DNA from: Mesaphorura yosii | Lineage: Eukaryota > Arthropoda > Collembola > Poduromorpha > Tullbergiidae | Assembly: GCA_009869945.1 (NCBI GenBank) | Contig: WIXG01000374.1 | Coordinates: 1 to 64,000, forward strand | Length of the DNA: 64,000 bases | Direction: 5' to 3' | Shown: one piece after another, positions 2,490 to 49,462 of the stretch | Layout: every line of letters begins with the position of its first letter | Position numbering within the stretch: position 1 is the first letter of the stretch | Program-made: the position numbers and the translations under genes | The notes under the pieces: generated by a model | Told to the model about the DNA's origin: nothing | Databases searched by the model: none | The model's input: only the letters and a program-made list of their open reading frames with translations

Positions 2490-5400
2490 ATGTCCAACAC
2501 ATCATCAAACGATGGTGGTGGTTACAGCTCAACTGAAATTGTCCATCAAGGATGGCTGACAAAATCACCTCCGCCCAAGGCCATCTTCAAACCCGTAAGT
2601 CATTGTCCATATCCCTCATAATGTTATCAACCGTGAAATTTGCGTGATACCAAATAATCGGTGAAGGCAGTAAGAACGATTTGCTTTCCCATAAAATTGT
2701 CCCGTCAGACAGTAATTGCAGAAGCTACGCAGTTATCGACAGTTAGCCCTTGTTAATTATGATTCAAGAAAGTGTTAGCGAGACAGTGAGCAACCGCAAT
2801 TCCACAATCATATTTGCATAAGAATTGTGCACCTGATCATGAAACGGCCGTGAGACACTTCATCAAATAGGCGCATGTTGTTGGAGCGTATGACATGAAA
2901 GGTTTGTTAGAGTTTTTATTTATGAGAGGTTTAGCCTCTAAAAATCTACTCAGAAATGTCACAAAACGTAGCGCATCCTTAATGCACTGCACATTAAACG
3001 AGGCCTGAAGTGCAAAGTTCACGGTTTGGTTTCTAATATTTATGTACGAGCGTAAGCAATTTGCGTAATCGCGATGTAGTAACGGTGCAATGTAGTGCAG
3101 TACCTTGATTAGAATCATAACCAGTCTTGTAAGATACTGCTAGTGAGTGTCAAGTAGTTCACGCTGGAAGTGAGGCTGGACAATGTGTCAGAGAGTGGAG
3201 GAGCTCATTAAGCATTTACGAAGTCTGAGCTTTGTTCTAAGCGTTTTCGTCATGATTTTCCATTTATTGATACGCTCGTCACACAACTTGTTGATTTGCC
3301 TCGTCTGCTCTTTTTCGCTACATTGGGTTGAACGTAATTTTATACCTTCAGAACATGTCGCAGATTTTATGAGTTTGGTTTCGAGCAATATGACATGCTG
3401 CGATGAGCGAATGTTCCCGTCGTGCCCGTGACATCCTTAACACTACATTTCGTCGGCTAGTATCGATTTTTCTTGACTTGCGTAATTGCAACTCGCGACC
3501 CATAAATAACTTGAAATTAAGTTGTTAAAGGAGAAGGTTTCCTGAAAGTTAATTTGGTTTTACAACAAGAACAGTAACGTCATTCCATAGAAACATTGCA
3601 CGGCAGCTACTGCCTTCTCATAATAGATACGCGATTCTGACGTTTATTCGTAACTGATTTACGACAAACGTCACAATAAAAGATCAGCAGGCAAAAGAGG
3701 CGTTGCACTTTTGTTTTTACAAGTTCCTAATGCCGTTTTCACGCATAGTTATGTGCTCGCAAAAAGCGAAGCCCCACAGCCACGGAGCCATGCAGAACGG
3801 AATTACTGCGTTTATTTGCAAAGGTTCTCAAAATAACTCTTTATGTGGGGTGTTGTACCATAAAAGAGAAGAGAATACCCATTCTCGGTAATTACGTAAG
3901 AGCGGCACGGGGAATTTGGATATTAAAAAACTACCTGCTGGCTGGCAAAAAAAAATACCCGAACGCGGCCTGCAGTGATAGGCTCGTAAACAGCACGACC
4001 TTCTGGAAGTGGAAACCTTTCGCATTTGTATTGAAAGTATGGCTAGTGCGGAACAATGCGATTTCTTTCCCTTTTTCTCGAAGTTAGAACTCATACTGGA
4101 GTGTTTTTCGGAGAAATCCAACACGCTCGAAATTGAAGCCATCATTTTCTTTGAGGTCGTTCTTTTCCACGCGCAAACTTTTCATGGTGAAAGAGTTCTG
4201 ACATGAGTTCTTTTGTGGTGGATGAAATTTTATCATTTTAGTGTTTAAACAGCATGTTAACAAGTGAACAATATAGACTTTTCGACCGCTCCTCAATTGT
4301 GCACAATGTGCACTCGGCACGACGGAAGTTAGGGATTGAAATCGGCATAGCAGCATCTTCTAATTTGGTACCTCCATCAATCTCGATGCCATGTGGCGCG
4401 ATTGCAAATTCATTTTGCATGGTCGATTGAACAGTTATTTTATGGCTTTCCTGCTGAACTGAATTCACATGTGTACAAACTTATGCTATTTGCATATTTG
4501 CATGTGGACAGAAAGCGACAAAGGAAAGGCTCGAAGTTCTCTTGTTTCCACACGTTGTACCAGAAATAAGGTGCCAGAAAATGCTTAAACTCATACTATG
4601 AAATATGAGAAATGAGAACCTGTTTTGCAATGCGCCGAAGGATTCTGCACGGCTTCATGGACATAAATAGTATAAAAAATTATATGATTTTGATCATACG
4701 ACCTGGAAGCACTCCTTGGAAAGATGAAAAGCTGGGGTTAACTTATCGTAATTTCTAATTTTATTGTAGAAGGGACTTTCGCGTGTCATTTTGTTGATGC
4801 AATCAAATTTTCTCCAAATATCATCACGAAAGAATCCAAACCAATCTTATATCAGATATGCCCTTTAATTGATATTCTTCCTAATTTTTTTATCAGCGTT
4901 GGCGAAGGCGTTGGTTTGTTCTTCGATCTGGCCCATTCCCCAGCCAATATCTGCTGGAATACTTTACGGACGAGTCATGCAAACGGCTAAAGGGGACGAT
5001 TAACCTGGATGAATGCGAACAGGTTCGAATGCTTTATAGCTCACGCTTTGGTTGCCATTAAGAAGACGGGAATCAATTATCTGGACTAGACTACACATTA
5101 CATGTGCATGATATGTTGTTGCAGTTGGGTTTCTCAACGAGCCTGCCGCCACCTACTCCTTTCGCGCTTCTGGAGAGACACAAATACACTTTCAGCCTGC
5201 GGATACCACATCGGGTGTACTTTTTAGCAGCGGATACGGAAGCCGAAATGTCGAAATGGATATCTTGCCTCTGCCAAATTTGCGGTCTCAAGACTACGGA
5301 CGATGAATCTGATGGTAGCCTTCCGCATCTTTTTAGTCTCCATTTTGTAAGGCCTCGGGTAGAATTCACACCCAATTTCCTTGTTTAGGTTGCAACAAGC

Positions 5401-6674
5401 CACCTGACGAAAACAATCGGCCTTTGGAATCAGAAGAGAACCAAAACAATTTAGACAGCGACGAAAGCAGCCCAACCTTGTCGACCGTATCTGGTCCTTA
5501 TATTCCCATTTCCGAATGCTTCACGGGGAAACCAATCAAATTCAATGACAAAGGCTTGGATAGATCAGAATACTACAATTCCAGCGTGTTCGCGTTTCCT
5601 CCGAAAGTGAACTGGTCTACATATCCCAGGAAGGTTTCTATTAATGCAAAAATTGTAACTTCTTCCGTTCCACCGGTTGCACCGCCACGACCTCCGAAAA
5701 CTATTCCAGGGATATCGGTCACGGCTTCACCTACTCTGGAAAAAGATTCTCTAACACCGATTGAAAACAGGACCGTATTCACGTACGACAACCTTGATGA
5801 ACAAGATTCTTCGTCTACCTCATCCTCATTGCAGTCCCCAGCTGGCCCCTTGTATACTAACCTCCCGGACTTAAGCACGCCAAGTCTAACTCCGGCTAGC
5901 CTAAATAGTTCCAGTTCCATCTCGTCATCCACAGGTGCAAACGGAAGTACACCGCCTAAGGTCAACAGGAACCTCAAGCCAGACTTGAATAAATCGTTCG
6001 ATGGAACGTCTCCGACGAGGTCTCCCTTTGAAACCACTGGGAAAAGCCAGCGATCGTTGGACTCGCCAGCTAGCATTGACCATCGGAGACGAAATGGCTC
6101 AATGGACGCCACTTTTCCGAGTTACCGTAAGGACGGCTCAATGACCCTACCTTCTAGATACAACAGTCGTACATCTTCAAGTACGGGGCCTGCCATTGAT
6201 CGATCCAGAAAACCGCCCGACGGTCCCATCACTCTCGGCCCAACTCCCGCTCAACTTAAAAATCAGAACGACCAGATTCTACGCACAACGAGACACAATA
6301 ACTCGAACTTTGCTTCAAATGGTTCCATGAAGAATATTCCCTCGCATTCCTCAGGCCGAAGACTAATGGGACCGGTGATTTCGCCCTCTGAGAAGAAGCC
6401 AGTGTTCCATGAGTACGAGCAACCAGCGGAACTCATCGGGGCGTATCTGCAAATCGACACAAAGAGTTTGTCAAGTGGTGGATCTGAAGGGAAAATTAAC
6501 ACCTTCAAGGCCTCACACAAAAAACCGAATGGGTTACATTCCGTTGAAGACTCTTCTGTGGAATATAAGCTCATCGATCCAGTCAAAACCAAAGCCCTGA
6601 ATCAAATGATTCAAGAACGCGAACAACAACTTGGGAAACGAACTCCGGTGAACAAGAATCTGAATGTGTCATGA
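2490..6674 (+). CDS. dos: Gab/Daughter-of-sevenless-like PH-domain docking adaptor
   Basis: This is a membrane-recruited scaffold that, in its family, is phosphorylated downstream of receptor tyrosine kinases and recruits the phosphatase SHP2/Corkscrew. Coding exons are 2490-2594, 4897-5022, 5125-5314 and 5389-6674; phases agree and the product is 568 residues. A PH domain spans about residues 17-135 (HQGWLTKSPPP, then RWRRRWFVLRSG, CEQ, and DTEAEMSKWISCLCQICG, all close to Gab proteins). After it comes a long Ser/Thr/Pro-rich region with an SH3-type PPRPPK (about 239-244) and tyrosines in YIPI, YDNL and YTNL contexts. Near the C-terminus YLQID (Tyr about 493) and VEYKLI (Tyr about 533, followed by DPVKTKAL) match the paired SHP2-binding tyrosines of Gab1. 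ATG 2490 begins an open exon that leads straight into the PH domain. The second intron has a weak donor (GTTCGA). The family assignment is firm; orthology to fly dos is inferred. Confidence 0.88.
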
Positions 6675-8998: not shown

Positions 8999-11900
8999 AT
9001 GTCAGGGAAAACGAAGGCATTACCTCCAAAGGAGAACGCGCTGTTTAAAAGAATCCTGGTGAGTGTCGATCGAAGTACAACACTAGTTGTACATTGCGAT
9101 TTTACTCTTGTTGATTATCACTTTTTCCGGTATGGTCTTGAACAGAAATGTTACGAACAGAAGCTGTACAAAAACGGGCTCAAATTTGCCAAGCAAATCT
9201 TGAGCAATCCTCTCTACGCCGAACATGCGGGTCAGTCCAATGCTTTTCAGTTAATCTAGAAGTTATGCTAACATTTTTCTCTGTTAACGTTAGAAACATT
9301 GGCGATGAAAGGGCTGATTCTGAATGCCCTGAGTAAAAGAGAGGAAGCATACGAGTATGTTCGAAGAGGATTAAAGAACGACTTAAAATCGCACACTTGT
9401 TGGCATGTCTATGGCTTGATTCAGGTAAGAACATATTCGGACAAACTTCCTTTCCTTGCTGATATGCTAATGATTCATTAACCTTTTACTACAGAGATCC
9501 GAACGCAAATACGATGAAGCAATAAAATGTTACCGGAATGCCTTGAAGTGGGATCCAAATAATGTTCAGATTCTGCGAGAACTGTCAATTGTTCAAATTC
9601 ACATTCGAGATCTCAAGGGCTATCGGGTATGGTCCTACCTCTTAATAAGACTACTTTTAGTACATCCGTAACAGAACAATTCAAAATGGAATTAGAAATG
9701 ATGCCGTAATCCAATAGATCCTACTGAACTCAGTTTAGCTGAATGACGAACTCTCTCTGATTTAACAAACGACGATTTCTATAATTCCGAAGCTTGTGAA
9801 ATTACATTGCGTTCCGATAAAGATGACTATGGCAGGCTCGATTTTGTTCACAGGACACGAGGCACCAATTGTTCAGCCTGAAGCCGGGTCAAAGGGCCTC
9901 TTGGATAGGATTTGCCATGGCGTATCATCTTCTCAAAGATTATGATATGGCATACAAAATATTGGATGCCTTTCGCAAAACACAAACTGTAAGTCTCATC
10001 GAAATTCTTAAAGTGAACAATTAAACCAGAACACTAACTTTCGTTCCACAGAAGGACACGACTAAAGATTACGACTACGAAAATAGTGAATTACTTTTGT
10101 ATCAGAATACATTGTTACAAGAGAAGGGCGATCTGCAAGAAGCATTAAACCACCTAAAAGCTAACAGCAATGAGATCTACGACAAGATATCGCTAAATGA
10201 AAATTACGGTATGGTTTTGAGATCCAATTGGAATTTTGAATCGAAACTTGCTAATCACTACTTTTCTTGCTTACAGGAATGATGCACTTTAAGTTAAATA
10301 AGTGTGAAGATGCTGCAGCGTACTATAAATTTCTCATTAAAGCTTGTCCTGATGACGCTAAATTTCATGAAATGTACATCATGAGCCTTGGAATTGACCA
10401 AAAGCCAAAGGAAATTATAAAACTTTATGAGTCCTTGGAAGAAATGAAAGGGTCCACCTTCTCAAGACGCCAAATCCTAAAATACGCCGAAGGAGAAGAC
10501 TTTCTACGCTACCTGCGGCCGTTTGTTCAAGAAATGCTTTCAAAAGGAGCCCCACCACTTTTTACTGAATTATGCAATATCTATACCACTGAGAAAACCA
10601 AGATGATAGAAAAACTAGTCCTAGGAATAGCAGACCAATTAGAAAAGAACTGTCGGTATCAAGAAGGTAAGCGCACGGTTCTACCGTATTAAAAATCATT
10701 TCGACATTTCATTTGCACACTTATAACGGCTTAACATCTTAATTTCGACTTCGACTAGGCGACACTGAAGAAGCACCTGCATCGGCGCTGCTTTGGACGT
10801 ACTACTACCTAGCTCAGCATTACGATTATCTTGAAAACACTGACACGGCACTGGAATTTTTGGACAAAGCAATTGATCACACTCCTACTTTAATCGAACT
10901 GTTCATCTGCAAAGCAAAAATTTACAAGCACGCTGGAGAATTTGAGAAGGCTGCAGAGTGCATGGATGAAGCAAGAGAACTGGATACGGCGGACCGGTAC
11001 ATTAACTCAAAAAGTGCCAAGTATCATCTGAAGGCAAACCACATTTCAACTGCAACCAGCGTTTGTGGAAAATTTACTCGTGTAAGTTTTTATCGCAAAA
11101 TGATATTGAACCACGCACCAAGGGAAGAGACCTGAAATTCTGATCCATTTTTTAGGAGGGAACAAACCCGATGGATAACCTCAACGAGATGCAGTGTATG
11201 TGGTTCCAAACGGAGTGCGCACTTGCCTATCAACGAACGGGACAATGGGGAGAAGCTCTAAAGAAATGCCATGAAATTGACAGGGTAATTAGCTAACAAT
11301 CAGCTACCATTGTCAAGCAGAAGTAATTTTGCGCTTTTTATTCAGCATTTTATGGAGATCATAGACGATCAGTACGATTTTCACACTTACTGTCTGAGAA
11401 AAATGACGCTGAGATCTTACATTCAATTACTCCGACTCGAAGATAATCTCCGCTCGCATCCGTTTTACTTCAAGGCCGCGAAGTAAGTTTGCAGTTTACG
11501 CGCACTAAATGACTCAATGACAAGACTGTGTATTGCATAAAATTTGATAATTGGCATGCATAATTAGACAGCAATTAGAGATCTTGAGTTTGGAAGGACT
11601 TTCTGTCCTTCCAAACTTGTAGTATTGTAGTAGTTATGGCAGCAGCATTTCAAACTTCATTTTTTAATCACAGGTGTGCGATAGAAGTATACCTTCATCT
11701 CTATGATAATCCCTTACAAAACGAGTCCGATGAAGCTCAGCTCAATACGGGTAAGCCCTTAAATCTTTTCTTCGCTTCGCTTTTTCCGTTCCGCCAAGTC
11801 AGGGCTATGATTCAAGCATTCAAGGAGATGAGTCGCAATATCACTTATAATGACGGTATCTTGGAGTGGCATGAATCTCAGAGTTTCCTCAATAAAACCC

Positions 11901-14900
11901 AAGACCAAAATCGTAAACGGGCGCTTCAAGGAAATACATTATCCATTAAATAGTCCTCAAACGCACCTGCGGCCTGCGACAGTTAAATTGTTGAAATGTT
12001 CAATTTACAAAACAGACACGTTACTATCATGCCGTGTGTCGTATATCCAAAATAGGACTTTGCGTGTTTCCTCTACACATCAGTAAGTTTGCCAACGAGC
12101 AGGCATACTGCAAACATCCTGCATACACGCATTACCGTTCTATTCTTAAATCACGGAAAATTGCCTAATTACATGCTTAAAAGGGAACCTTGACTTTAGC
12201 GTGCGAAGAGGAAACAACTTTGACTGTTTGAGCATTGTTAAATGAAATAGGCTTTAAGTGTGGCTGAAATTTGAGAGAGTTGAAATTTGAGTTGTAATTT
12301 GAGAGAATAATATTTACGGTATTTAGTGAGAATGGTTCGTCGCTTGCCATTTGCTTCATTGGCACGAGCGTATTGAGATAATCTTGTATGACATTTGGGG
12401 GTTCTTTCTGTTCTTCCACCGCATTAACATCCTTGCCGAATTTCACTTTCGTTTCCGTGCAATTGCTTCAGAGTCCAAGCCTACGCGAGTGGTTGTTGAC
12501 ATTTCTCTGAACTCGTCCATGTGCCTCTCACCCGCTTAACGTTTGTCCGTATCAATGTTCTAATTTAAATTTAATAAGGATTTGAAGCAGCCTATCTGTG
12601 GTCACGCATCATCTCTCATCGCATTATTGCGTCGATTTCCGTTATACTTTGGATGAAGTGACGTGTAGCCGATGGTTCTCAAACTTCGTTTCATGCGACT
12701 TTAATTTCGCGTTGAGGGGAAGTTTGAATCGAAAAAACTCGAAGATTGGAATCTTGGCCACAATACCACAATGACAATCATTTTTTTCAAACTCGAAGTC
12801 ATTATTTATTCAGGCAGTCGCCTCCGTGTTGTGCGATTGTGTACAAAATCAGGGTAAATTGTGCACCCTGGCACGAACTAATTAGCAGTAGACAAGTCGT
12901 CCAATATTGCTGGCACTGCAGTGGAGTCAGTGGGTGGTTAGATGCATTTTGAAACATAACTGTGCCATTAATACGAATGCCCTGACATAATTGAGGTTGG
13001 ACGATTTCTTGTAAATCCAAATTGCGCCGAGTTCATTAGCAACAAGAACAAACAAACGCAACGCATGGCTTTCTGTAATGTCATGCCAGAGCAGTCTTGC
13101 TATTGACAAATGAATCTGCGTTTCGAATCCAATGTAATGGCAAGATCATTTCGAGCTTGGTGTGGAAGAAATCGTAAGTGAGCGTGTGGAAAATAAGTGT
13201 GGAATTCTGCTAATGATTCAATTGAATGAAGTGCAAAAAATCCACTTCCGCTGTAATCTGTGTAAGGAATTGCTATTGTGATTGTCTTTACAATTTTAGA
13301 CGCACAGCGTCCAAAACAAAAGTGCAAGGTAGGCATTATCTGTGCTGTCATTGTTGTTTGAGATTGAATTCATCTTTCGCCATCGCCATCATTAAGTGCA
13401 TAATTACAATTGCGCTAACTGTCTAATTTCATGTGCGCGTATGTGGCACTGCGTGCGAAGCACCTTGTTGATAACGGGAAAGCGCAAACTCAGGATGATT
13501 ATGGCCCTGCATCGTAACAATGAAGTTTGGACGAAAATTTTCAAAACTATAAATTATTAAATCATAAACTGTGCGCCTTGCACCAAGACGTAATCTTTCC
13601 TCGTGAAATCTGAACTAATTCAAGTGCCGAGCGAGTCTCTCGTTGGGATGGGTGGATGATGCACCACGCCTTGCTTTGGACCATAACTAAATTGCAATGA
13701 ACAAAAATGGAATGGAAGATTAAGAAAACTACTGTATATTTTAATGTGTGATTTTTTGTGTGGCTGCTGTTGGTGCCGTGTTGAATTTTAAACGAAGAGA
13801 ATTATACAATACAAGCTTAACATTTGGTTTTTATTGTTGTTGGCAAAGCCAACAATGCGTGCGCACTCACACTCTACCCTGTTGCGTGCAGTGAGGAGCA
13901 GGAACATAGTTTATGACGTCTGACTATAATTTAAGCATATTCGTAACACTGCCATGCGAGATATTTTAAGAGTATGAAATGATAATAATAATTTTTGACC
14001 CAATTTCATGGGTTAGCAATCTCTCAAGATTACTTAACAAGACGCACTGCAAGAATGTGTGGCAGGACCTTATCCTGACTCCAAATCGAGTAATAACTTG
14101 CGCTTTTATTTTAGTCATGTCTTTATTTCGTCCACTCTGACTCCTGCTGTACCCTACACATGTACCGACACAGTAGCAGGGACAACAATAAAATAGTTGC
14201 ACTACGGTTTCCCACAAATTAAATTTAATTATGTGTGAGATTAATGAAAAAGAGAGCCAGTCTCTGCAATCTTAATAATCTTAATGTCATATCTCCAAAA
14301 CTATATTATTAAGTTCTTGTCATTCATGAGATAACATAACCTGCAATCAAACGCAAGTGCATATGCATTTGATCGTCACGACTTCTGATTTGTTATAACA
14401 AGATTACAACAACGCTGCACGGATCGAGACAAGTGAATGCCGCATGGCCATGCATCACGCATAATGTTTTGATGCTGATGGTGGTCTTAACTTGGGCTCA
14501 GGACAAGGCAAGACGAATCCAAAGTGCAAATCTTCGAACCCTGAACTGAAGTGTGGAACTAAATTGAGTGTGCGTTGTGCGGTACGTTCGTACGTTGAAA
14601 TATTTGCAAGATTTTCATAATTAAATTGGGCAAGTTCGGCAAGTTGAAGATTTCAAAAGAAAAACCAATGTACGAATTGGACTCCGTATAGGCTCTTTTA
14701 TTCACTTGTTCTGTCAACTTTTGAGATTTTAAATTAATTATTTAAACTTAAATCAGCGGCTTATACGGATTGTTTCCCGAATCTACATTCCATACGCGAA
14801 ATACTACTCCAGTAACGTCCAATAACACATTCTATGCAACAAATGCCAATGCGGTAGGCAATTACACACATTTAATTAGTCAATTTAAGCTGCTACATTA

Positions 14901-17900
14901 AGTCATAGCGAGAGAGTCAAGTCTGGCAACCAGTAAGGGCAATGCGTAACAGAAATGCTGAATAGGTACTTAACTTAAGTAAACGAAACCCCTCGAGAGA
15001 CATGAAATGCGTGTTTTGCTAGTTTTCAATTTCATTATTTGGAACACGTACAGAATTAACAATATTAAGAACAATTCTTACAATATGCAAACTGATTTTT
15101 AACGCAGGAAACGTAAAGTACGTACTAAGCAACCCAAGTCGGAGGTTTAAAATAAGTTTGACAGCAACCGACGTCGCGCCGTGTCGATGGTGTAACAATT
15201 TTAATAACAAGCACCAATCCACAACAGCAACCAGCCATTGTTTTCGTATGCCAATTGTTCTTACAATTTGAGCAGAGTAAATGCAGCGCAGAAGTGTATT
15301 ATTAAAAGTGTGGAAATTTTATCATAAAGGGAGGTCATACTCAAACAGTGAGCAAGTTATCTCGTTAAAGAGCCGGCCAACTGGCTGACACATCTGTCTG
15401 TAATTCGCACTGCCGCCACTTGTATCGAATGACGAAGGCCTGTCAAGTGTCGGAAGCCCGGACTTGGCGTTTGCACTTAATTACTGGTTCTCGCGCCTGG
15501 GGGGTGTGATAGAGTTGCAAACTAAAGCAATCGAATCTCAAATGCTTTAATGACACAATTAACGATAATTAATTTCTTACCTTTACGACTCTGTTTCATG
15601 AGGTTATTAGTTGGATATTGGGAAACGATAATTACCAGTTTTTTATTGATCGAAATGGGCATTTAGTCCTGCGTAATGAATCATAATAGTTTAGCGAATT
15701 GTTAAGAAAGCCGTTTTATCGAAGGATGAAGTGATGTCTCGTTTTGCATGTGTTTGGCTTGACATAAATGAAATTGATGATGTATGAATCATTTAGTTAC
15801 TTGCAGTTTTGCTCACTATAATTTATGCATCAATCCAAAGTGTGCGCGTTACACATTTTTACGATTTGATATTCCTCAGAAGCTGCGGACTCACTGTGCG
15901 CTAATGATATATTACGGATATTGTACGGAGCACTCAAATGACGAACTAGTCTCACGTGGTCGACTGCTTGAGAATTTGACATCAGTTTCTGTTGTCAGAA
16001 CGGGCCCAGCCCTGCCCTGCGGCCGATTGTAATTTCAATATTGTCTGTACTCACTTGTCAAACACTTGAATTTCATTCAAAGCCTCATGGCGAGTCAAGT
16101 CAAGTGGTCTCAATCTTACAGCGTTGAGTTTATGGTGCTCTACTTGTTCTTTCAAAGTGAAGGATACGCTCCGACCAGACGCATTAAAATTCATGATTGG
16201 ATCACTTCCATCTCGATCCATTTATTTAAGCTGTAGCAACTTATTGATTTTATTTAAGTCAAACTTGAATTTCCTTTCACTAATATCACAGACAAAACGA
16301 TTATTACAGTTTTGCAATGATAATCTTGTTCGTCAAGAATTATGGGAGGTCTTTTTTGTACTGCGCAAGCTAAAATTATTAAAAAGTTCACAACTTCGAA
16401 GCTTATTAAAAGAATCCTAAATTGGTTTGGCTTGACTTCAACTCCTGCATAAGATTGATCAAATGACCGTAATTAAATTATCATAACAGTACACATAGTA
16501 TAGCACATGTTTTGTGGCCCAATCAATCTCTTCACTCTCAACAACAGTCTTCTAATTTATTTATCAACTCTAGCGAGGATTGGCCCCGCCGTTGTCGTCG
16601 GCTTATGGCTTCGTAGGTCGCTCACAAGCGGATCTTGTAACTGAACCCACCAGGACCTCCGCGTTGGAACGAGTAGAAGCTTCCAGACGATTGCTGCACG
16701 GCTGCTGTGTTAGATCCGGCACCTGTGTGGTCGGGGCCGTACTGCAGCTGCAGAGTTGATGAAGCAGGTCCGGCTTTGGGAACGGAGCGTGTTGTGATGG
16801 ACTCAGACTCGGTGTTGTATTGAGGAAGTGGTTCCCTGCGAAGGATGCAAGAAACGGATATCGTTAGCATTTTTACGTGGTTCAGAATGGGTCAAGGCCC
16901 AGCGAGCGAAGTACGAAAAGCCAATAAAAGTACAAGTGCCATTTTAAGTGCTGAAATTGGTAAAGACAATGCGTTGCATTTAAATCCACTCAAGACCAAG
17001 TGAGATATAACTGCCTACATTTACTACGAAAAGCAATCAACGAAGCAGAAGCGAAAGAGTACGGAGCTGTAAAATGGCTTGTTTGTGGCACAACAATTGC
17101 AATTTGTTGTTTTTGGCTGAATTCTCTTGTCAACCTCGATGGAGAGATAGAATCCTTCATGTGCGAGTTGATACTGCCTGACGACATCGTGTTTACATTC
17201 AATCGCAGGCTGAAGATTGATCCATGATTATGCACTGCACATTGAGAATCGACTCGTAAATATTTTCATGCTTATAATTCCAAGATCATAAGTCCGTGAA
17301 TGCGTTTGCGTGCAGTGCGAGGCACGACGAGCTCTGATGCATCGTAATACTTCATGAATAGGAAAAATATAATTTGTAAGTCATACAAGCTTACACGATT
17401 CGTAGTTTCGACTGCAAAACGTGCAATTTAGCCGCTGTCATTGTGCTGCAGATTTAAATGACTCATAAAATATTTCTTCTCAGTTGCAAATTGATTTGAC
17501 CTATAAGTTGTCTTATCACTGTAGAGGATTTACGTGTAATTAATTACAGCGTGGAGTCTATTGGTTCCTACGAGTGCAGTGGTGTGGATAAACTACGAGT
17601 CAGTGATGTGTGAAAATAAGAATCGCGAGTCGCGAACTGCTTGTACCTTGTCTCGCTAACGCGAATCAAAACTGTTTATGATTGATAGCTTTTTGCTTCT
17701 GTTACAACCGGCCATATTCCACTGTGAGGCGAGGAGGCTCTATGAATGGAAAGAAGGCCGAAAAGAGTTGAATGAAATGTTTCAGATTGTCATCTCTTAA
17801 TGTTTGTACACAGAGACTCGCTGTATTTATATTTTTGCCAAAATTGTGCAATTATACACGCTCATTGCTCGCAGTCTTTGAAGGCCATCTTATGCGCATA

Positions 17901-20900
17901 TTAATTCTGCGCTGCTTGTCTGCTTGGAATTAGAGCAAACATTAAACGCAACGGCGCAGTACAATTCCATTCTATGGCAAGATTAATTTTAAAGAAAGGA
18001 ACAAAAAAACTCGGCACAACGCGGCCACGAGCAAACAATGAATCGAGAGGAACTGAATCTGAATATTGGGCTGACTGACTGAGCATTGGGCTTGGTGGGT
18101 GTTAGTCTGAATCGATTGTTTGATTTTTAAATATTTGGGCTGACGCGCAAGCCAGAGAAGGGAGAGCCAAAGAGCCATGTTGAGACGACCATGATGCTTA
18201 ACTGTATGAAATGCGTTTAGCTTGTAATCTCGAAAGTTTCTTGCAAACCCAAGACTTTACTTTATATTATGTAATATTTTTATGTGTTTTCCGATTGTTT
18301 CTTCTCTGCCTGAATGAGCCTCCGCCGTCATCTTTATTATTTGCGTTCTCTGTATCGCTCTTGCTACACATTTCGTCGAACGCAATATCGAGAAGGAGAA
18401 ATGAAGAAAGTGATTGTGTCGCTTCCGGCCATTCCACTGTTGTGACAATAATTAACTCCATTCGCAAGAATTCGCATAAAAGTAGAAAGAGAAGGATAAG
18501 GTAAATATAAAGCCGAGAGTTAGCTTTTTCGTAAAATAATATGAGAATTTGTTGTTGTATAACGAGCTCGTAATTTCCTTTTTAAATACTCACCTGTAAT
18601 TGACAAGAATATCTTGATGAAGTGGCACGGCAGCAGGCTGTTGCTGCTGCTGCTGTGACTGCGGTCGCGACTGCTGAATGTAATTAGCATGGGCAGGATT
18701 GTAGCTCGGCTGAATTTGTTGCTGATACTGTGGTGGGAAGAACTGCTGCGGTTGAAAGAATTGCGGCAGGCCATTGTTGAAATGGTTATTATTGAGGTTG
18801 TAGTTGGAACCAGGCGGAACTCCGGACTGAGACGAGTAGAACGGGTTCTGCTGCACATTCAGGCTCTGGTCCAGCGGCTGCCTATACTGCGTAATTGGGG
18901 AGTAGTAGCCCTGGTTTTGTGGGAGTTGGAAAAGCGGATTAAAGGGGAATTGGGACTGGTTTGTGGGCCCGGGGAATAAAATCTGAGCTCGAGCTCTCTG
19001 TAGTTGTTGGTTTTGTGGCGGAGGGAATGCAGGCCTGAAGCCTGAGTTTGGTCTCTGAAACAGCGGCAGGTCTTCGTTATTCTCATTCTGGTTCTGCTGA
19101 TTCTGCTGTTGCAAATTTTGGCGGTTCACATTGTTTTGCTGATAGCGTAATTGATTTGGTTGAAAGTTGTTTAGTTGTGGTTGTGCCTGCAGTGGCCCGT
19201 GTCTTACCGGGTTTAAGCCTCCGTTGAAGTAGGATGGACGCAGGATTCCAGCCTTTTGTCTTGTGTAATTGTCCGGATAGTAAACGCCACCGTTACCATT
19301 GTGGCTTTGCTTCGGATCATCGGGGAACACGATGGAGCTGATAGGAGTTGGGCTCGGTTGTATCAGGTTTTGCTCTCCATGACTGTACGGGCGTGTCAGT
19401 GTTGTTGGGTACACGGCTGGGTATTTCTCCTTCTTCTTTGCGTATATGTTTGGATTGTAGTTGGTCGTGTACTTTGACGTGTTCTCAATGTAAGGCTTTG
19501 TGGTCACTTTCGGTGCAGTTGTTCGCGGGAAGTCAAACAGAATCGGCTGATTGTGCGAGTTGTCGTCAATATTCCTTGATGGATAGCCGAGTTCATCGAA
19601 AGGGGGAGGAGGTGTCGATACTTGTGGATGCTGAGGCACTCCTGTATCTTCAATTGCTTGTTCCGCTGCAATTTCTGCCAGTGTCTTCAATTTACCCCGC
19701 ACATACACGTAATTTGGCGGCTTCGGCGTCGTTGTTGTTGGGAGAGTCGTCAAAAGCGGTCGTGCCACAAGAATCACGGGCTTGTAGTCATCGACGTTGT
19801 CTTCCGGGAGTTCAGCTGAAATTTCTTCGCTTGAGCTGTCTCCTTTTGTATATTTTGTGAGGAGAGGATTTACGTACACTTTGCTTGTCTTCCCTGGTCT
19901 TTGCTTCCTTTTCTTCCCAAATGTTGTCGTTACTGGAGAGGGACTTGTCACTGGATACGCCGCTTCAAGACTGTCGTCTGGTGGATTGGTGATCGGGAAC
20001 TTGGGCTTCTTTGCATTTGGACGTTGTGACCTCGCATCCTGAATCACGAATGGTGTCGCATGTGTTGGCCGGATTAAACTTTGAGCAGGACTTGTTCTAT
20101 TATACACTGTGTAGAAATCTTTTGGAGGCGGTACGACGAGTCCCGGCGCAAATGGCCCTGGTGGTACGATGGTGCTGTTGTCCTCGTAGTAATCAAAATC
20201 GTATGGCGGAGGCAGAAAGATGGACGGGTCATCTGTCTCGTTGTCATTTGGGTTCAAAACAAGTGGTGGCAAAAACGGATATTGCGGTCCGTTGCCTGGA
20301 GGTTGACCTGAATTTCGGTCGCCCGGTGGTGGAAAGGGAAACGGAAATGGGGGCGGTCTCGAATTGTTTTGTAGACCGGCCTGAGGGAAGAAGAGCGGCG
20401 GCGGTAAACCGGAAGTGTTGAAGTTGGTTGGTGGTACGTTCCCACCCCCGAAGCCATATCCAGGACCTGGCGGACCTCCTCCTCCGTAGAGGCCTCCAGG
20501 TGGTGGTCTGTTGCCATAAACTCCTCCTTCTTGTGGTGGTGGACCTGGTCGTTGGAAATTGAACGGTGGAAGAGGAAGCGTGTTGTTACCTGTATTGAAC
20601 CCGGGCGGTGGAGGTCGGAAGAATTCTGGAATAGTTCCATTTGGGTACAACGGAATCATTCCTGGGGGCGGGAGTCTGCTGGGGTCGAAGGTTTCATTGC
20701 TTCCATAGTCAGGGATGAAGGGACCAAACGGTGGTGGTGGTCCAAGAAAGATTGGAGGACCTGAATCGTTCACAAAAACTGGAAATGGTGGTGGGTTGTT
20801 CGTGTCCAGTGGAATTTTGAGTGATGGTTTGCGCCTTTCGTAAGAATCGATTGGCTTCCATCTATCCTTCGAGTTGAGGTCAAAGTCTCCGCCTTTCAAT

Positions 20901-22988
20901 ATCAAAAGATGGCCATCGGACAGCCAAATATCATTTTGTTGCACATTCCCCAACGTGCGCTCATTGTCTTTTGCGAAGTCGTCGCTTGGTTCGTAGGAAA
21001 TTATTCCAGGCGCTACCGTGTCGTTTGAATGATCGAAGAATACGTTGATGAGGGCGTACTTTCCGTCGTCTGATCCGATCTCTAAAGCCAAATTCTTCTC
21101 ACCGGTTGAACTGGTCTTGTCCGAGTTCTCAGGAATGCCGAGGTCGTCCTCCGCTGCTTTTGGTGTCGTGGACTTCTTGACTGGCCGCTTGACTTTCCTC
21201 CTTCGTTTTGACTTCTTTGTGGGCTTCTGCTGTACTTCTACTTCTGAGTCTTGTACATTATCAGTCAAGCGTGCAAAGTGCCTCCTCAGCGCAGGCGGAA
21301 TGGATGGAATTGGCCTGGTTGCTGATTCCAGGTAGTGTTCTGTGACGCCAGACTCGTCGGAGTCAACATACTCGTAAGATCGAGAATCAGTCTTTTCGTC
21401 CTCCTTCTGACGTGGAAGCAGTTCGCCACTGCCCCGTTGTCTGATGGAGAAGGGCGAGTACGGGTTCTGCAGCTGAGAGGACGCAAGATAGGACGGACCA
21501 GTCTCCACTCGGATGCTGATTGTCCCTGCTGGATGCAGGAGACATGGCACAATGAATAATGTGACGACGACCCACTGCGTGTGGGGGAATATTAGCTTCA
21601 TCTTTGCTTTTTGACGCCTGCAATTCATAAAAGAATGTGGTACAGAAAATGATCGCATCGTAAGCAATTTAAAGTCAAATTAGCGATACCGGAACCGATA
21701 TTATTCTTGTTACTTATCTTGGCGGAAGTAAAGTCGAAAAATATACGAGTTGCTGGAGGATATGTTTTCTACACCTTGTCGCTCTACACTTAAGCTTTCC
21801 CTACATACAACTTCTCAGCATGAAATTTTAAAAAGTGATATTCACGATGCATTGATCACGACTGTTAAATTCACGAAAACCTAGAAATATGCACCTTGAA
21901 CTAAATAAATCCTTTTCTATTTCAGAAAATCTGTCGCCTGCGGAACTGAAGAAACTGAAGAACAAGATGAGGAAAGCCAAGAAGAAAGCCGAGGTTGAGT
22001 TACAGGTGAATTTATTATCATGTTAAAACCGACGACTGAAAACTGCAGTATCAGTCTGACTTTTTTTATTCAAAATACAAAAACTGCTTTTCGCTAGGCT
22101 GCCGCCGTGGCCGCAGAAAAGAAGGAACAGCACGCAAAGTCGAAGCAGAGCACAACAGAAGACGGCGAGTACCATCCGCCGCCCTCCGAAGAACTGTCTC
22201 CAGAAAAGCTGGCACGAACTCCGGATCCCTTGAAGGAGGCCACCAGATTTTTGGAACCACTGCAGTGGTTTGCTCGTTCACGAATTGAAACTCATCTTCT
22301 CGCATACGAGATTTATAGACGAAGGGGTATGTGTCAATGTGTAAAAAAGGATGTGACTCATATAGCTTACGGTGGACTGAACTATTTTCGCTGTGCACAG
22401 GTAAAGCCTTACTCATGCTCAGAAGTATCAAAAGAGCGCTGAAATGTAGCTCCGGCAAAGGGAATCCAACGTTGGTTGAAAACTTGTCTGACTTCAAAGA
22501 GAACGTAGTGCCTGGGTAAGAGCTCTACCTGACAAGGTGATGTTCTCGTACCAGGAATCTAACGCTGAATTCAACCTTACAGTCTAGTTGGTCTCCCAGA
22601 AGTTCTGGAAGAATTCTTTAGAGTTGAAATGGAGCTCATTAACAAAGAGGAGTACACAGCTAAGAACTGGAAATCGTCTACATCGTCTGCTGCTAAAACT
22701 CATCCTGGACCATCTGAAGCACAAGGTTGTCCTTAAATGCGTCTTCTGGTCCTTGTCTTTTCATGAATTTGAAATAAACTTCGTACAATTAAATCTCTAA
22801 ATCCGAAGGCCTGCATTTATTTCAACTGAACTAACAACTTTGCCTACTAAAAGTGGCTCACCACTTGTGCAAATTGGGATTCATGGGTACTAATTACAAA
22901 ATTATTTATTTATTTTCAGGCTCCATTAGCAGAGTCTGAAAAGGCGCTTGGACTAAAATTTGCTTGCTTTAATAAAAAATCAAGCTAA
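8999..22988 (+). CDS. NAA15: N-alpha-acetyltransferase 15, NatA auxiliary (ribosome-anchoring) subunit
   Basis: NAA15 is the TPR-repeat scaffold that holds the catalytic NAA10 on the ribosome to acetylate nascent N-termini. I place 16 exons: 8999-9058, 9146-9230, 9294-9424, 9495-9626, 9854-9988, 10052-10208, 10277-10666, 10759-11081, 11156-11284, 11346-11482, 11674-11750, 21926-22005, 22098-22326, 22401-22515, 22583-22725 and 22930-22988. All junctions keep phase and give 793 residues. Diagnostic stretches are [30 protein letters not shown], the TPR segments [20 protein letters not shown] and [17 protein letters not shown], and the basic [20 protein letters not shown], followed by PEKLAR and [15 protein letters not shown] 8999 fits the family N-terminus, although the frame is open upstream. 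The last two exons diverge from the family, and the protein is about 70 residues shorter than the usual 860 or so. Intron 11 is 10.2 kb and contains an antisense gene. Confidence 0.9.
11587..11617. repeat. Perfect 13-bp hairpin inside an NAA15 intron
   Basis: AGTTTGGAAGGAC (11587-11599) and its exact reverse complement (11605-11617) flank a 5-base loop, TTTCT. One further G-T wobble pair is possible outside the arms. It lies in the short intron 11483-11673. In the pre-mRNA it would form a strong stem between donor and acceptor. Confidence 0.8.
11751..16555. other. NAA15 intron 11, left part, no supported gene
   Basis: This is the first half of the 10.2 kb NAA15 intron. It is AT-rich with scattered short frames. 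One minus-strand frame (12473-12177, about 98 codons) has a plausible amino acid mix but no ATG with context, no strong acceptor and no recognised family. Confidence 0.55.
16556..16561 (-). terminator. Poly(A) signal of the nested secreted-protein gene
   Basis: AATAAA on the minus strand, about 60 bases past the stop codon at 16622-16624. The position is right for 3'-end cleavage of the nested gene. Confidence 0.6.
16622..21601 (-). CDS. Secreted Pro/Gln/Asn-rich matrix-like protein, nested in NAA15
   Basis: Two coding exons (21601-18594 and 16835-16622) join in phase (AG|G, Arg) to give about 1073 residues. A signal peptide is visible (MKLIFPHTQ, then [13 protein letters not shown]). A charged N-terminal part follows, with a Lys/Arg cluster ([12 protein letters not shown]) and a more ordered block containing YALINVFF and [16 protein letters not shown]. 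Next is a long proline-rich region with PPPF/PPPG runs and many N-glycosylation sites, then Thr/Pro-rich stretches, then a Gln/Asn-rich tail ending in [12 protein letters not shown]. The ATG at 21601 sits just after a TTGCAG acceptor, so a 5'UTR exon lies upstream. The composition resembles cuticle or extracellular-matrix proteins. I do not recognise a named family, so the function is unassigned. The whole gene lies antisense in NAA15 intron 11. Confidence 0.82.
18638..18655. repeat. CTG/CAG trinucleotide run encoding polyglutamine
   Basis: Six near-perfect CTG units, read as CAG/CAA on the minus strand, encode the Gln run near the end of the long exon of the nested gene. Such runs often vary in length between individuals. 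Confidence 0.7.
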
Positions 22989-31634: not shown

Positions 31635-34600
31635 CTATGTGCTGGTTTCTATCACTGCTCCGTTGCCCTTCCCTACTTTCTCATTACTGTTGCCGTTCTT
31701 TGTGTGCTTAACATTGTCGTCCAGTTCAACATTTCCGTTAGAGTGATGATTGTTGGCTCCATTCTTCATACTGTTGTTGGCAGGTCCCTTTTCCACTTCG
31801 CCATTCTGTGAGAGAATATGTTTTGGGATTAATATAGAATCAATTCATCGCTCGAACAGTTCCCAAACATTGATCCAACAAAAATGCACATCATTATTGC
31901 GAACTTATAACAGTATCAATGAACTTGTGAACACGCTACGTGTGAACAAGAAAAGAAAGCTAATGTGGAAAGTACTTGTGTTGGTGAAACAAAGTAAAGC
32001 GAAAGTACGTTATACTATGATAGTAAGGAAACTACGGAAAGCAGTCATGGACCATAGAATGAAGCACGTCAACTACAGACAAAAGCACCGAGAACATGCA
32101 GTTAATGGCTTAGTTACCGTTCATGCGAGGTCAGCCGCTAAGGTTACTATTTAGACTAAGTACAGCTATTTGTCGAATTGAGGAGATGCAGTGGCTAAAG
32201 TATTGTTGTGATATAAAGGGTACAAAACGGCAGAAGAGAGCAATGGAAGCGTGGGCAGTTTAGTCATTGTGTATAAATTTCCACGTTTCGTGATTCATAA
32301 TCTTTTCTTGCTCATCCTAAGGGAAGTAAGTGAAATCATGCAATATTAATAATAAAGAGTGCTGAAAACAAACTAAAAGTCAGCTCAAATTGTACAACTA
32401 AGAATCTGTACACGGCTTTTGACATACCTTTGTAGTTGTCTGGAACTTTTTCTCTCCGTTCCTGCTTCGGCAGAGATAAACCAAAACGCAGATCAGGATG
32501 ATGGACCCAAGTCCAAAAAATACGTAGGACATTGCCTGCTCTGCGATTGCTGGCATAAACACCGCAACGCGAAGCAAACTGGTGATCGAATCAGGAAGAG
32601 AGTCGATTCCCTAAGATCGCAAGAATTTTTAGTACAAAAAATCTTTGCAAAATGCTGTTTTGCAAAGAAGCAATTCTCACATCTTCAAACCAAATAACTG
32701 GGATTAGAATATCAGTCAGATTTGCTGCTTGCTTAATGTCTTCTATTTTACTGGCGAAAATGTTAATCTGGATACGAGCCTTTGCTTGCATTGGAATTCC
32801 AAGTTTCTGTTCAAACCATAAACGATCATTAGTCTCATTAGAAAATGATTAATACTTGAAATTTTTTATGTAGACTTGTTGTCGAGCTCACCGGTTGAAT
32901 GTCGATATAAAACTGATGCCGAATTGGGTCAGGATGAAGGCCATCAACATCAGTCAGCAAGGTCGGGTCTCCGTGCAAGAAATGAGGCCATGAGAGGAAG
33001 ACTGGAGATCCTGTAATTTTAATTAGGATTATAAATATAATTCGTCAACAAAGCAGAGATTTCTTACTAAGATTAATAATAATAATAATAATATTGAGTA
33101 CACGTTTCAGGGGCTTCATTAGGATTTCAAGAGTAAAAGAGTTAATTACTTTACCACACACGGTCTTCTTTTATTCAGGCTTAGCATTGTGAAATGCAAG
33201 TCAATTCAATAATTGACGATTGAATTTAAGTGCACGATAAGGAAGTGTCATTCTGTCATGCAAATCACATCCAAGCAGGAATGTCTTACCAAACTGGCAC
33301 GCGGAGATATTGAAAACACCTCGTTTGGAGCACGGAGGACCGCCAAGGCAAAAACATTCGTTTTCAGGGTACGTTTCAACATCACCAAATGTCCTCCCTG
33401 CAGGGTAGTATCTGCGGAAAAACAAAACATTTTCTCATTAGCTGGGCATTCCTTGAGAATTTCATTTTTTAAAATCTTTTTAGTGTCGCTGCTGGAGTGT
33501 GAATATTTCACTACAGAACGATCACTAACCTGAAGGCCGGAAGGTCTTCATGGGTTACTTTCTGATTATAAACCAGTTCTACAGACTGACATAATTCTGG
33601 ATTGAAGATGAAAAGAGTAGAATTTTCGTCCAGCATTGAAGGGAACCCCGTGGCATCAGTGCCTCGAATGGCATTGCAATTTTCACCGTCCCAGAACTGC
33701 ATCTTGTCTTTTCCATCCCAGCGATTGATGCGCGCATAGTCTTTCAGGTTTTCTTGCCCGGTAAAAACGGTGAGAGTGTGCCCAGGTGTGTTGTTTCGGT
33801 TGTAGAAGAAACCAAACTTCTCAAATGGTGCTCTTTTTCCTTCTGGAGCAACTTGCTTTCCTAACTTCAGCAGCGGGTCATCGTAACCCCAAATCATTTC
33901 TCCGACAGATCTTTCAATAAATGGCTGAAGATTGAGAATCTCCAAAATGGTGGCGACAGTCTTCTTGGCGACCCTGCTCGAGTGCTTCAACGAGCCAATG
34001 GCGGCCTAGGACGAGTCGTAATACATGATTAGAATAATTTCGACGTATGAGAACAGATTTGCTGAAAATCTTAGATGCATTCCTCGAAATATCAGCTGTA
34101 CTGAATATAACGTTGAAATAAACAAACTATAAACAGCAATTGCGTGTCGGCGATTTGTTTGATAGCGATTTTTTTTGCTGGGAAGCGCAGTTAAATACGA
34201 TTATCAAAAGCCGTTAATGAATATCATTCATATAGAGTACATTTTGCTTGGCTCGCGTTGAACTTCTAACTTTAACCTTTCCGTAGGAGGGTGTCGACAT
34301 CTGAATAAGATTGCGCTTTATACTCAAGGAGTTCAAAATGACAGCTTCCAGAACTTACCAACATAGGAACATTCGGGAGGACGTATTTGTCGTCTTCTGA
34401 CCCAAGAGACATTTCTGGTTCAAATTTGTACACTTTATTCTGTCGGTAGGAAAGAGTTCCATTTGGATGCCAAACTGGCTCAACTTTTTCCCATTTTTCA
34501 CTGTTTGTAGAAATGATTACAAGTTAGTAGTCGGCATTGAATTCAATTGTTTCATAACTTGCATACATTTAGCTGCTCCTCACCTGTACGTGTATGGACC

Positions 34601-37600
34601 AAACTCTTTGAGAATCAATTTGGTGTTATTGGAATCACCTAAATACGCTTCTGGATTGGTGACATTAAAGAAGTACACCTTCAAATACGGAGTTGCAGGT
34701 GGCTTCCTCCATAACTCGAAGGTTTCGGTATCTTTTTTCAATGGCAGTCGCTGAAAATTTTCAAATGCACGCAATTAATCCAAGAACATCGAACTAATAC
34801 TCGTATTTTTCATTATGGTCAGTCAGTTGCACAAGAAATCATTTGGTACACAGATTAAGCAAAAAAAACAGCCGGTATGCAATTCTTGGTCGATATTTTG
34901 CAAGATCCGCAAGAGTTCATCGGAATTAATTGCAGCTACGAATGCTGCATTGTAGTAAACGAGCAAGCAGCAGGCCATAAAATGTCCACACGGTGCTTAC
35001 TTCAAAAGGGTCGGGACACTCACTCTAATTGGGGCAAGCATGAAATTATGTAAACACAAACTGCATCAATTTGAGGTACCATAACCTGTTCTAGCTTTAT
35101 AGGAAATAAGTGCGGTGCAAATGTCATCGGGCGATTTCGCGTGCATTTTAGACACAGCCAACCTGTTTTTAATAATTGGAAAGGCACGGCATGACACAAT
35201 TGCCAGGCACAAACAACGCAATCCAAGAAATTCATCAGTTTTGAAACACCATTTGTATGTGAGGCCTTTGTAAATGGCACAATGGCAATAATTACAGGGC
35301 AGGAGTTGCACTACGGGAATTGGTTTTGCATTCATCATTTGTGACCAACCTCAAGTGGAAGAAGTCTTCTTCAGGGCAACAACGCAAAGCAAGACGAGAC
35401 AGCTGAAGTCGAACTCTTTTAATTTTGTATTGAAGTTTAAATTTTCTTTGAGGAAATTAGCATTATAATTTTGCAGATATAAAAATAATTTAGAAATGGT
35501 TTTTTATGAGAGAAATTTGAATTCACTGTAAGAAAAGAAGATGACTCTCTTCTGGGTAGACGTAGCCCACCATGGTGCAGTTGATTAATTTTAGAATAAG
35601 CTTTCAATGGGAGGTAATTTCAACCCCCTTCATTCCATACGTCAATGAATTATGTTCGCTCGATGTACTCCGTGTGTCTGGCGGCGTTCTTCATGGCTAA
35701 TCAGTATATTAACGACACACTCCGGTGGTGAGATGCGCACGCTGTCGCAAAAGTGAAACCAGAGGCGGAAACGCAGTACTACTTTTGACTTCTTTCGTCT
35801 TTTAGAAGTAACTTAATTACTGCAAATATAAGTGGCAGTATGTGCAAGGAAAACGAATCAAATAACAATAATTTTAGTCAAGCGCAATCACTGCATAATA
35901 ACTGCCCCTCAGATGACTTTCTGTTCGTCATTAGTTCATTAGAATGGAAAGTCTTAAGATACCTCCTCGTCAGTTTGGTCATTTCAGCTTCGTCCTGATC
36001 CAGAATCGGTAAAACTGAAAGTTAATGAGGTACACGAGTTAAACTTACCCCTGCAATAATTGAGTCGACCAGGGCACTGAAGAAAAGTACTGTGAGGATT
36101 CCAAAGATAAGAAATAAAATTCCAGCCACCGTGGCGAGTGCTGTAAATATCAAAGAAAATATTCGTTATCGGTCAGTCAGTATTTCAGCATAATTGCAAG
36201 TTTTTAGCTTTCCAAAAAGTTCCTCTTTGGCACATCACTTGCGCGCGCTTGTCATGATTTTCTGTAAAAGCAGATGAATTGCAAGTATTGCAGACAAGAG
36301 GTTCAACACATCTGGCCGGATGGGTCATGGTTCATCTTATTGTGTCAATTAAATTTGAAATTCATGGTATTCAATTTTCTGTGTTGCAGGTCGCAGCAAT
36401 CTCGAGCGTATGAGGTTAAATGTCATGGTGGGGAAGATGGCAAGACGCAAGCTCTGCTTTAGTCCACATGCACTTAAAATACTGATAACCTCATACAAAA
36501 GTGTAAAAGCCAAAAGTGCAATTTCTAAGTTTAGTATCTTATTATTCAACTTGATAAATTATGAGTTATCAGTTGATGAGTTCTAGGGCGCCCTTAATTA
36601 CTTCTTCACGCGCCAACACTACAAGGGACGGCATTAAAATACACTACTTTAGTGGGAGTACATCGTTTGCTCAGGATTGTTTATTTTTTTTGAGTGTGAA
36701 ACATTTTCATAAAACCTATATCGCTTCTTCTATTCTGCCGCACTGTTGCCCATTTGATTTATCCGACTCTGCGTGAACGAAGTCATGCACCATCGACGGG
36801 ATAAGCCAGCAGATTAGGGAGTAATGTGAAGATCGTGAACGTACGCTTATTACGCCAAGGGAAAATGACTTGAAATAATAATCTTCCCGATGGCTTCTGC
36901 CTTGGTCGGTCTAATAACAACAATTCATGACGATGTCGTGGAATAGGATTTAAGACGATATTTAGGTAGGCGTTCGACTCTCTGACTATTTCAAGCCCAA
37001 GTGGTGAAGTTTCAAAGGATTACGAATATGATGATCGAGAAGTTTTTATCCGCGCCATATTAGTTGCGGTTACTATCCTTAGAGCAATAAGTCAGTCTAT
37101 AATTTCAGGACACATTTTTAAAACGGACTCGTTCCCAGCCCCAACTCAGCAGGCCTTAAGTTTCCAGGGCAGGAACAGATACATGACTTTGTTTATAAAT
37201 CACACGAGAAAAAACGTCGCCTTAAGCTTCGGTAAATAAACCATTTCAGATGGGAACTTCACGTTCCGAATGAAGGGCGAGTGCGAGATTGAGATTAAAG
37301 TCGAGATTGAGATGCATCCCATCTATTCCCAAACTGTTTTTCATTTCTCTTATCGCCACGTGTTACACAACGTTCGTTGTCTTTTGATGACAACTCAGCG
37401 TCATGAACTTTGGTACGACATTGAAATTGTTGGATCTCCTAATCAGTCAACACATGGCACAGCCTCGATGAGACGCTAAATATTGAGTCAAGATGAGGAG
37501 AAAAGAGAAACAACCTTTCTTCTCAGAACAACTCATGTCCTTCATTCGCTCTTCTTGATCTTGACGTTATTGCAACCTTGTGTGAGAGGTTCACCCTTCT

Positions 37601-43600: not shown

Positions 43601-44325
43601 AATTAATAAGCATGTGCCAGGCCTCCTGTCCCCTGAAAGGCCACTGCTAAGCGAATGCAGCGCAATGGATTTTAATGCGAATTCAGAAGGAGAGAAGGGA
43701 ATTGCAGTACACTCTAAACACAGAATTTATTTGCATGCGTTAAATCGTGAAACCCATACAAGTGAAATAAATTAACATAAATCTCTCACCCCATAAGAAT
43801 TATAAACGGTCAGCTTAAACTCAAAAACGCAAAGGGCACGACACAATTACAAAAAATGAATGTTAATGTTGAGGTAATTTATACTTGTCTGTGCTTCAAG
43901 TTCCAATTACACAATCAAAGGCCTTGACTTGGCCTCATTGTTACGACATTTGCTTCACACTGGCCCTACAATGCCGGAATCGCATGACTGCACACGCATC
44001 CAGCACTCTGACGCTGTGGTGAGATTCCATTTCAAGCTTTAATTTGTTTCACTCGCAACGTTCTACTCACACAAAAACTCTTGATCGCAATATGAACAAA
44101 GAATGCATCTCTCATCGCAAAAATGAATTAAATTTGTGTGTGGTTTCTTGAGGTTAGCCAAGATCGCATGAGGAAGTATGGGTGCCAATGTCACGTTCAG
44201 CAAGAGTAACGCCAGGAATTAAAAATGGGTTGAGTTGAACATTGTGACCAAAAAATCTGAAAAGACTCACCGCAGCCGGCAACAGCAACGAAAGAATTGC
44301 CTACCATCGTCTTCTGGCTTTTCAT
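31635..44325 (-). CDS. Class B scavenger receptor (CD36 family)
   Basis: CD36-family proteins are two-pass membrane receptors with a large extracellular loop that bind or move lipids and other ligands. Exons on the minus strand are 44325-44271, 36140-36049, 34750-34584, 34500-34359, 34005-33530, 33411-33290, 33010-32892, 32806-32681, 32610-32428 and 31805-31635; all phases agree (550 residues). The N-terminal membrane helix is about residues 11-42 (VAGILFLIFGILTVLFF). The ectodomain shows family signatures: TETFELWRKPP, NVTNPEAYL, LKEFGPYTY, INRWDGK, CNAIRGTDATGFPSM, FRYYPAGRTF, NECFC, GVFNISAC and SPVFLSWPHFLHGDP. The C-terminal helix is about 460-480. The cytosolic tail is about 70 residues and rich in Asn, Gly and Lys, longer than usual. 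The frame is open upstream of ATG 44325, so a longer N-terminus is possible. The family is certain; the subtype (croquemort-, SCARB1- or SNMP-like) is not. Confidence 0.9.
33074..33092. repeat. AAT trinucleotide microsatellite
   Basis: Six tandem TAA/AAT units in the CD36-family intron between the exons at 32892-33010 and 33290-33411. It is a simple repeat. Confidence 0.85.
36141..44270. other. 8.1 kb first coding intron of the CD36-type gene
   Basis: This lies between the exon encoding the first 18 residues and the exon encoding most of the first membrane helix. I see no nested gene comparable to the one in NAA15. It contains a perfect 12-bp hairpin at 41593-41623. Confidence 0.6.
41593..41623. 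repeat. Perfect 12-bp hairpin in noncoding DNA
   Basis: TGAAATGACAAG (41593-41604) and its exact reverse complement (41612-41623) flank a 7-base loop. It lies in the long CD36-family intron. The stem is too short for a typical microRNA precursor. It may be a protein-binding dyad, a remnant of a mobile element, or chance. Confidence 0.75.
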
Positions 44326-44697
44326 GTACTGTACCTTTGTACTTGTGTAATCGTGAATCAAGTCATTAAGCAGTTCCTCCAAATAAAAAATTAATGCCTT
44401 CTTGAATTGCGTCGTACGCTCTGAGCTTACGTACGCTTTTCTTGGAACAATAGTCGCTGACAAGTCTGAAGGTCCTGTTTCTTGGTCAAAGTCCAAACAG
44501 AGATTAGTCCAAGATTTTAAGTCAAATATTTGAGAATTGCGTTAACATCATAATTTCAATGTGAATTGTTTTCCTTCGACCATACGGATAATGCGGAAGC
44601 GAAGTGAGCACTGATGGCAGAAATCAGTAGAGATTAGAGATAGAGAAGATTCCTAACCTTGTATGTTAGCTTTAGTCTCCTTGGCCTTCTCTGGCTG
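44271..44697 (-). other. Possible 5' coding extension or 5'UTR exons of the CD36-type gene
   Basis: The first CD36 exon stays open upstream of its ATG back to an AAACAG acceptor at 44475. About 40 bases at 44697-44658 form a possible extra exon with a CAAG|GTTAGG donor in matching phase and a peptide starting QPEKAKETKANIQ. Together these would lengthen the cytosolic N-terminus by more than 60 residues. CD36 proteins normally have a very short N-terminal tail, so this may be untranslated. Confidence 0.3.
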
Positions 44698-49200: not shown

Positions 49201-49462
49201 TTCAGAATGAGCTCAGGGGGAAACGGTATAGACTGAGGACGCAGGCTTCAGCTTCTTGTCTGGTTTTTACCTACCACAACGCAGGCAGGTATAAATGTCA
49301 ATTTATTGTGTCGTGTGACCTGAGGCTTTTAAGAATGAACACAGCTAACAATGCGTCCACCGAAAATAAAGAAATTCTTTTCAAGACCAGCATGGTTGGA
49401 AACAAATTTCACAGGGTTGAGTTAGATACATTTTTATCTAGAAATTACAATTTAGAGAAATA

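Follow-up and report, generated by a model that had tools for sequence, protein, structure and literature searches.

Here we describe a nested gene pair in the collembolan Mesaphorura yosii. A gene for NAA15, the auxiliary subunit of NatA, carries within one of its introns what reads as a complete coding gene on the opposite strand. The arrangement is very probably an ordinary one, in which a rightward NAA15 gene hosts an independent, leftward, two-exon gene for a secreted protein in a 10.2-kb intron. Both genes lie in bases 1-64000 of contig WIXG01000374.1 (C374; 71,356 bases), from assembly GCA_009869945.1 (93 Mb, 1127 contigs); this whole stretch of 64,000 bases is referred to as the window. 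NAA15 would be transcribed rightwards and the large intron spliced out, while the nested gene would be transcribed leftwards from a promoter of its own. Its predicted product is a secreted, disordered-looking protein of 1073 residues, rich in Pro, Gln and Asn and of a matrix or cuticle type. The opposite orientation would spare the pair most problems of read-through, and any functional link between the two genes is probably slight or absent. The giant size of the intron is probably due to the nested gene together with its regulatory DNA.

The host gene occupies 16 exons of the plus strand (8999-22939) and encodes 780 residues, with GT-AG borders at every intron. It was spliced by eye from the sequence and then checked with a script. 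The spliced protein contains the PF12569 domain and is colinear with solved NAA15 chains over most of its length. A single alignment of residues 7-707 (E 3.9e-253, 846 bits) was obtained with 9fpz_B, 9f1b_DB and 6c95_A, the last of which we take to be the human NAA15 chain. In 9fpz_B the aligned segment is residues 5-704, and query residue 707 falls in exon 14. The related chain 5nnp_A extends the match to residue 743, in exon 15; this exon had no match in the PDB when searched alone. The assignment of the last intron and of exon 16 is uncertain.

Intron 11, the host intron, interrupts the gene in phase 1 (CGG/GTAAGC ... TTTCAG/AAA, with slashes at the splice sites). At 10,175 bp it is about 45 times as long as the longest of the remaining 14 introns, which span 61-227 bp. 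It contains no repeat of at least 25 bases, no tandem array and no Rfam match, and Rfam and tRNA scans across the window returned nothing informative. The disparity in intron length is what one would expect if two adjacent genes had been joined in error, NAA15 ending near 11750 and 21926-22939 being something else. This is barely credible, as exons 12-14 carry on the NAA15 alignment in the correct phase and the join of exons 11 and 12 (residues 585-586) lies deep inside that alignment. Moreover, a second NAA15-like gene of 784 residues on contig C130 (L006 = G000:C130:101500-111400; L006 6247-3713, minus strand) joins both halves in a single reading frame and reads straight across the exon 11/12 junction. 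The two introns of this copy correspond in position to NAA15 introns 2 and 8; the other 13, intron 11 included, are missing. Because it is cDNA-like at this point, it shows independently that exons 11 and 12 belong together. An end of NAA15 before 12000, a case that a preliminary description of this DNA had itself raised, was therefore dismissed on homology and on the paralogue, and the same description was correct in placing a complete antisense gene in one NAA15 intron at 11751-21925.

The minus strand of the host intron contains a stop-free frame of 1029 codons. Together with a short second exon it gives 1073 codons plus a stop, all inside intron 11 (Table 1). A C-rich stretch of low complexity might open such a frame by chance, or the frame might be left over from a mobile element; the amino-acid composition is biased (P 15.4%, Q 7.8%, N 7.5%), and GC and skew rise across 18-22 kb. 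Its length argues strongly otherwise. Among 300 intron-sized Markov sequences with the composition of exon 1 the longest stop-free run was 376 residues, and among 300 with the composition of the intron it was 278. Codon log-odds (bits per codon) were computed with three training sets, none of which included the nested gene. Exon 1 scored 0.182, 0.255 and 0.205 and exon 2 scored 0.160, 0.232 and 0.146, while the five other frames of exon 1 ranged from -0.205 to 0.032. No repeat copy was found in the genome for the DNA at 21000-21600, and neither the first 269 residues of the protein (other match E 0.5) nor the last 71 have a second copy there. A chance frame was rejected on the frame length and the in-frame scores, and an origin by chance or from a mobile element can hardly be right.

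Of the two arguments, the length of the open reading frame (ORF) is stronger than the codon score. The score of 0.183 for NAA15 itself is flattered, since NAA15 sits in that training set. Training on two other genes only (609 codons, one gene Ser/Pro-rich) gave -0.04 for NAA15 and 0.255 for nested exon 1. Replacement of NAA15 in the training set by the C130 copy gave 0.132 and 0.205, respectively.

The joining of the two exons is supported at the donor, which has the consensus CAG/GTGAGT. Splice-site scores were built from 14 introns of NAA15 and compared with the minus strand of 12000-60000 (2639 GT and 2709 AG sites, each scored site counting itself); only 4 of the GT sites score as high as this donor. 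Of the 182 terminal exons that are in phase and have 15 codons or more, exon 2 ranks first in coding score: under the model from other genes it has 11.0 bits and the runner-up 6.3, and under a model trained on nested exon 1 the values are 19.1 and 8.2. Its total of 11.2 bits also exceeds the 8.3 of the best background frame; the background consisted of 107 ORFs of at least 50 codons in 36000-50000, assumed to be non-coding. The leftward gene thus appears to be an independent coding gene with its own frame, splice sites and poly(A) signal. This agrees with the earlier description, which gave it 1073 codons, an intron of its own and a poly(A) signal. AATAAA is present at 16561.

Several observations weigh against this interpretation. 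The acceptor at 16835 is weak, with a score of 0.2 that is equalled or beaten by 752 of the 2709 AG sites. If splicing did not take place, exon 1 would run to a stop inside the donor and encode 1003 residues, with an AATAAA at 18338. The per-codon score of exon 2 (0.16) is equalled by the best background frame, of 52 codons. A score confined to synonymous choice gave 0.027 in frame and 0.075 in one antisense frame; because it fails to separate the frames, the codon signal depends on the choice of amino acids. Finally, no relative of the nested protein was found in any search made.

Table 1. Features of the NAA15 gene and of the gene nested within it (positions in the window)
Feature	Coordinates	Strand	Basis
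NAA15 exons 1-11	8999..11750	+	Spliced translation colinear with solved NAA15 chains; PF12569 on single exons
NAA15 intron 11 (host intron), 10,175 bp, phase 1	11751..21925	+	Exon table; C130 paralogue without the intron
NAA15 exons 12-16	21926..22939	+	Homology; exon 16 (22920-22939) uncertain
Nested gene, coding exon 1 (signal-peptide-like start; Pro-rich, then Gln/Asn-rich; Cys-free past the leader)	18594..21601	-	
Nested gene, intron (donor CAG/GTGAGT; acceptor CGCAG/G, weak score)	16836..18593	-	
Nested gene, coding exon 2 (stop codon 16622-16624)	16622..16835	-	
Poly(A) signal AATAAA, about 60 nt past the stop codon	16556..16561	-	
Putative 5' untranslated start of exon 1 behind a possible acceptor TTGCAG/G; unproven	21602..21617	-	Score 5.3

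The nested protein begins with a hydrophobic leader that, judged by eye, resembles a signal peptide and holds its only cysteine. It has 13 N-glycosylation motifs. From the composition, a secreted product with a matrix or cuticle-type role may be proposed. Neither exon matched any Pfam family at E up to 1; Chitin_bind_4 (PF00379), the domain of RR cuticle proteins, was accordingly absent. The genome contains 66 matches to this domain, all above the family cut-off, as fits an arthropod. NCBIfam gave no match to the protein. Exon 1, the only exon compared with the PDB, had a single match at E 0.78. A scan of viral contigs with 280 residues of the protein gave two pattern matches and no relative.

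The start of the nested transcript bears on whether the two genes interact. The preliminary description placed a 5' untranslated region (UTR) acceptor at 21617 and held that an upstream exon must lie to the right of it, possibly overlapping the NAA15 exons. The acceptor scores 5.3, within the range of NAA15 acceptors (4.1-15.3), but is not established. A score at least as high is found at 123 of the 2709 AG sites, and an unspliced transcript would also keep the frame open upstream of its ATG, as far as 21679. An unspliced start inside the host intron is thus as plausible as a spliced 5' UTR. An overlap with the NAA15 exons that begin at 21926 may exist but is unproven. The nested gene would act as an antisense regulator if its 5' exon lay past 21926; its primary transcript would then overlap NAA15 exons 12-16 and lower NAA15 wherever the secreted protein is made. 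The possible acceptor fits such a transcript, as do the donors, which were scanned up to 24500. The best minus-strand donor in 21618-21925 scores 4.5, under all NAA15 donors used (6.8-12.0), and better ones lie further out at 22581 (6.4), 23750 (7.5) and 23882 (9.3). On the other side stand the commonness of acceptors of this strength, the open frame, and one simple motif scan up to 25000 in which none of three TATA-like sites had an initiator. Published accounts of interference do not agree. According to PMC8467205, early array data showed a positive correlation between the expression of host and nested genes, while later Drosophila RNA-seq found that nested pairs diverge, which was read as avoidance of interference; mammalian pairs showed no extra divergence. 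Antisense regulation is unlikely here, and two independent genes remain the favoured interpretation.

The earlier description further suggested that the nested gene is probably tissue-specific and that the two transcripts may interfere, both still hypotheses, and it called the host a housekeeping gene. The host is indeed NAA15, but this genome contains two or more NAA15-like genes, and the host is closer to the solved NAA15 chains (846 bits) than the C130 copy (697 bits). A PF12569 search of the genome gave eight stretches, six in the NAA15 of the window and two, both stronger, on C130. Across 712 aligned codons, which take in residues 1-720 of the window copy, the two share 69.7% identity. 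Nonsynonymous divergence (dN) is 0.19 and synonymous divergence (dS) is saturated, NG86 giving no value and YN00 giving 2.3 and 2.0 on two of three parts. Both copies therefore look constrained and the duplication old; the saturation precludes a date and an exact omega. At 22583-22939 of the window, the match to the NAA15 chains stops at their residue 704 or so, and the chains continue to at least 840. The match ends at residue 704 in the window copy and at 703 in the C130 copy (9fpz/6c95 numbering). The C-terminal part thus appears to be diverged or missing in both, and because they lose the match at the same place the change is probably older than their split.

The C130 copy may have arisen through a partly spliced RNA copy. 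It is flanked by plus-strand potassium-channel frames at L006 2397-2609 and 7745-8197 (both PF07885), and the best PDB match of the latter is potassium channel subfamily K member 3 (E 6e-39). A donor behind the first frame at about 2609 and an acceptor ahead of the second at 7798 were judged by eye. From their order, pore 1 then pore 2 as in the K2P topology, we presume the two frames to be exons of one TASK-type K2P gene. Read in this way, the C130 copy may itself be an antisense nested gene, in an intron of the K2P channel gene. It is very doubtful that this copy, with its intact frame and low dN, serves as an escape copy, supplying the NatA auxiliary subunit where strong leftward transcription of the nested gene would choke the intron-rich NAA15; on that view, nesting at one locus would explain why a duplicate was kept at another.

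Two further minus-strand frames lie in the host intron. A 56-codon ATG frame at 16051-16221, downstream of the nested gene, is preceded by a weak acceptor-like site and followed by a donor-like CAA/GTGAGT, and is possibly an exon of another transcript. Nothing in the PDB matched it below E 1.8, and the genome contains no second copy of it. An open frame of 96 codons at 12177-12467 scores higher in the codon test than most background frames do (median -0.17, maximum 0.16). Neither frame has a Pfam match over the cut-off. A second nested gene in 11751-16500 was considered but gained no support, as the two frames, tested over 16054-16221 and 12180-12467, score near zero (-0.05 and -0.01, respectively). 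Elsewhere in the window, the plus strand carries at 5062-6674 a frame with a PH domain (PF00169) and, behind it, a long Ser/Pro-rich one, perhaps a Gab/Dos-type adaptor. An exon of a CD36-family protein (PF01130) is found at 33514-34005 of the minus strand and a Got1/Sft2-family frame (PF04178) at 51826-52155 of the plus strand.

Nested genes are well known from flies and other animals. The nested share of D. melanogaster genes is put at about 6% (PMC3786989), and the majority of nested pairs are reported to lie on opposite strands (PMC8467205); nesting has also been termed neutral (PMC3786989). The view that the present arrangement is notable was thus overstated, since intronic nesting on the opposite strand is common. 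The closest parallel found is 2mit in timeless2 of Drosophila melanogaster, as described in PMC3786989. Like the gene described here, 2mit has two exons, encodes a protein of similar size (1141 residues) and lies whole in one host intron on the opposite strand. The hosts and the proteins differ, and for 2mit the expression is known and nesting is reported to be conserved in drosophilids and the honey bee. The TipE cluster in CG18675 (PMC3240667) likewise occupies a single intron of a conserved host gene, with expression that is described as poorly correlated with that of the host. It comprises several related genes in that intron, whereas one protein-coding gene is supported here.

A literature search pairing Naa15 with "nested gene" found nothing. 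In the Gart gene of Drosophila, a housekeeping host, an intron holds an opposite-strand, intron-containing gene for a pupal cuticle protein. The host in our case is unrelated to Gart, and the nested protein has no Chitin_bind_4 or other Pfam match. The pair is thus a new example of a known arrangement, not a new kind. It provides a clean antisense case in a small arthropod genome, whose host has an intron-poor paralogue without the nested gene. That paralogue is a natural control, as interference would hit one NAA15 copy and spare the other.

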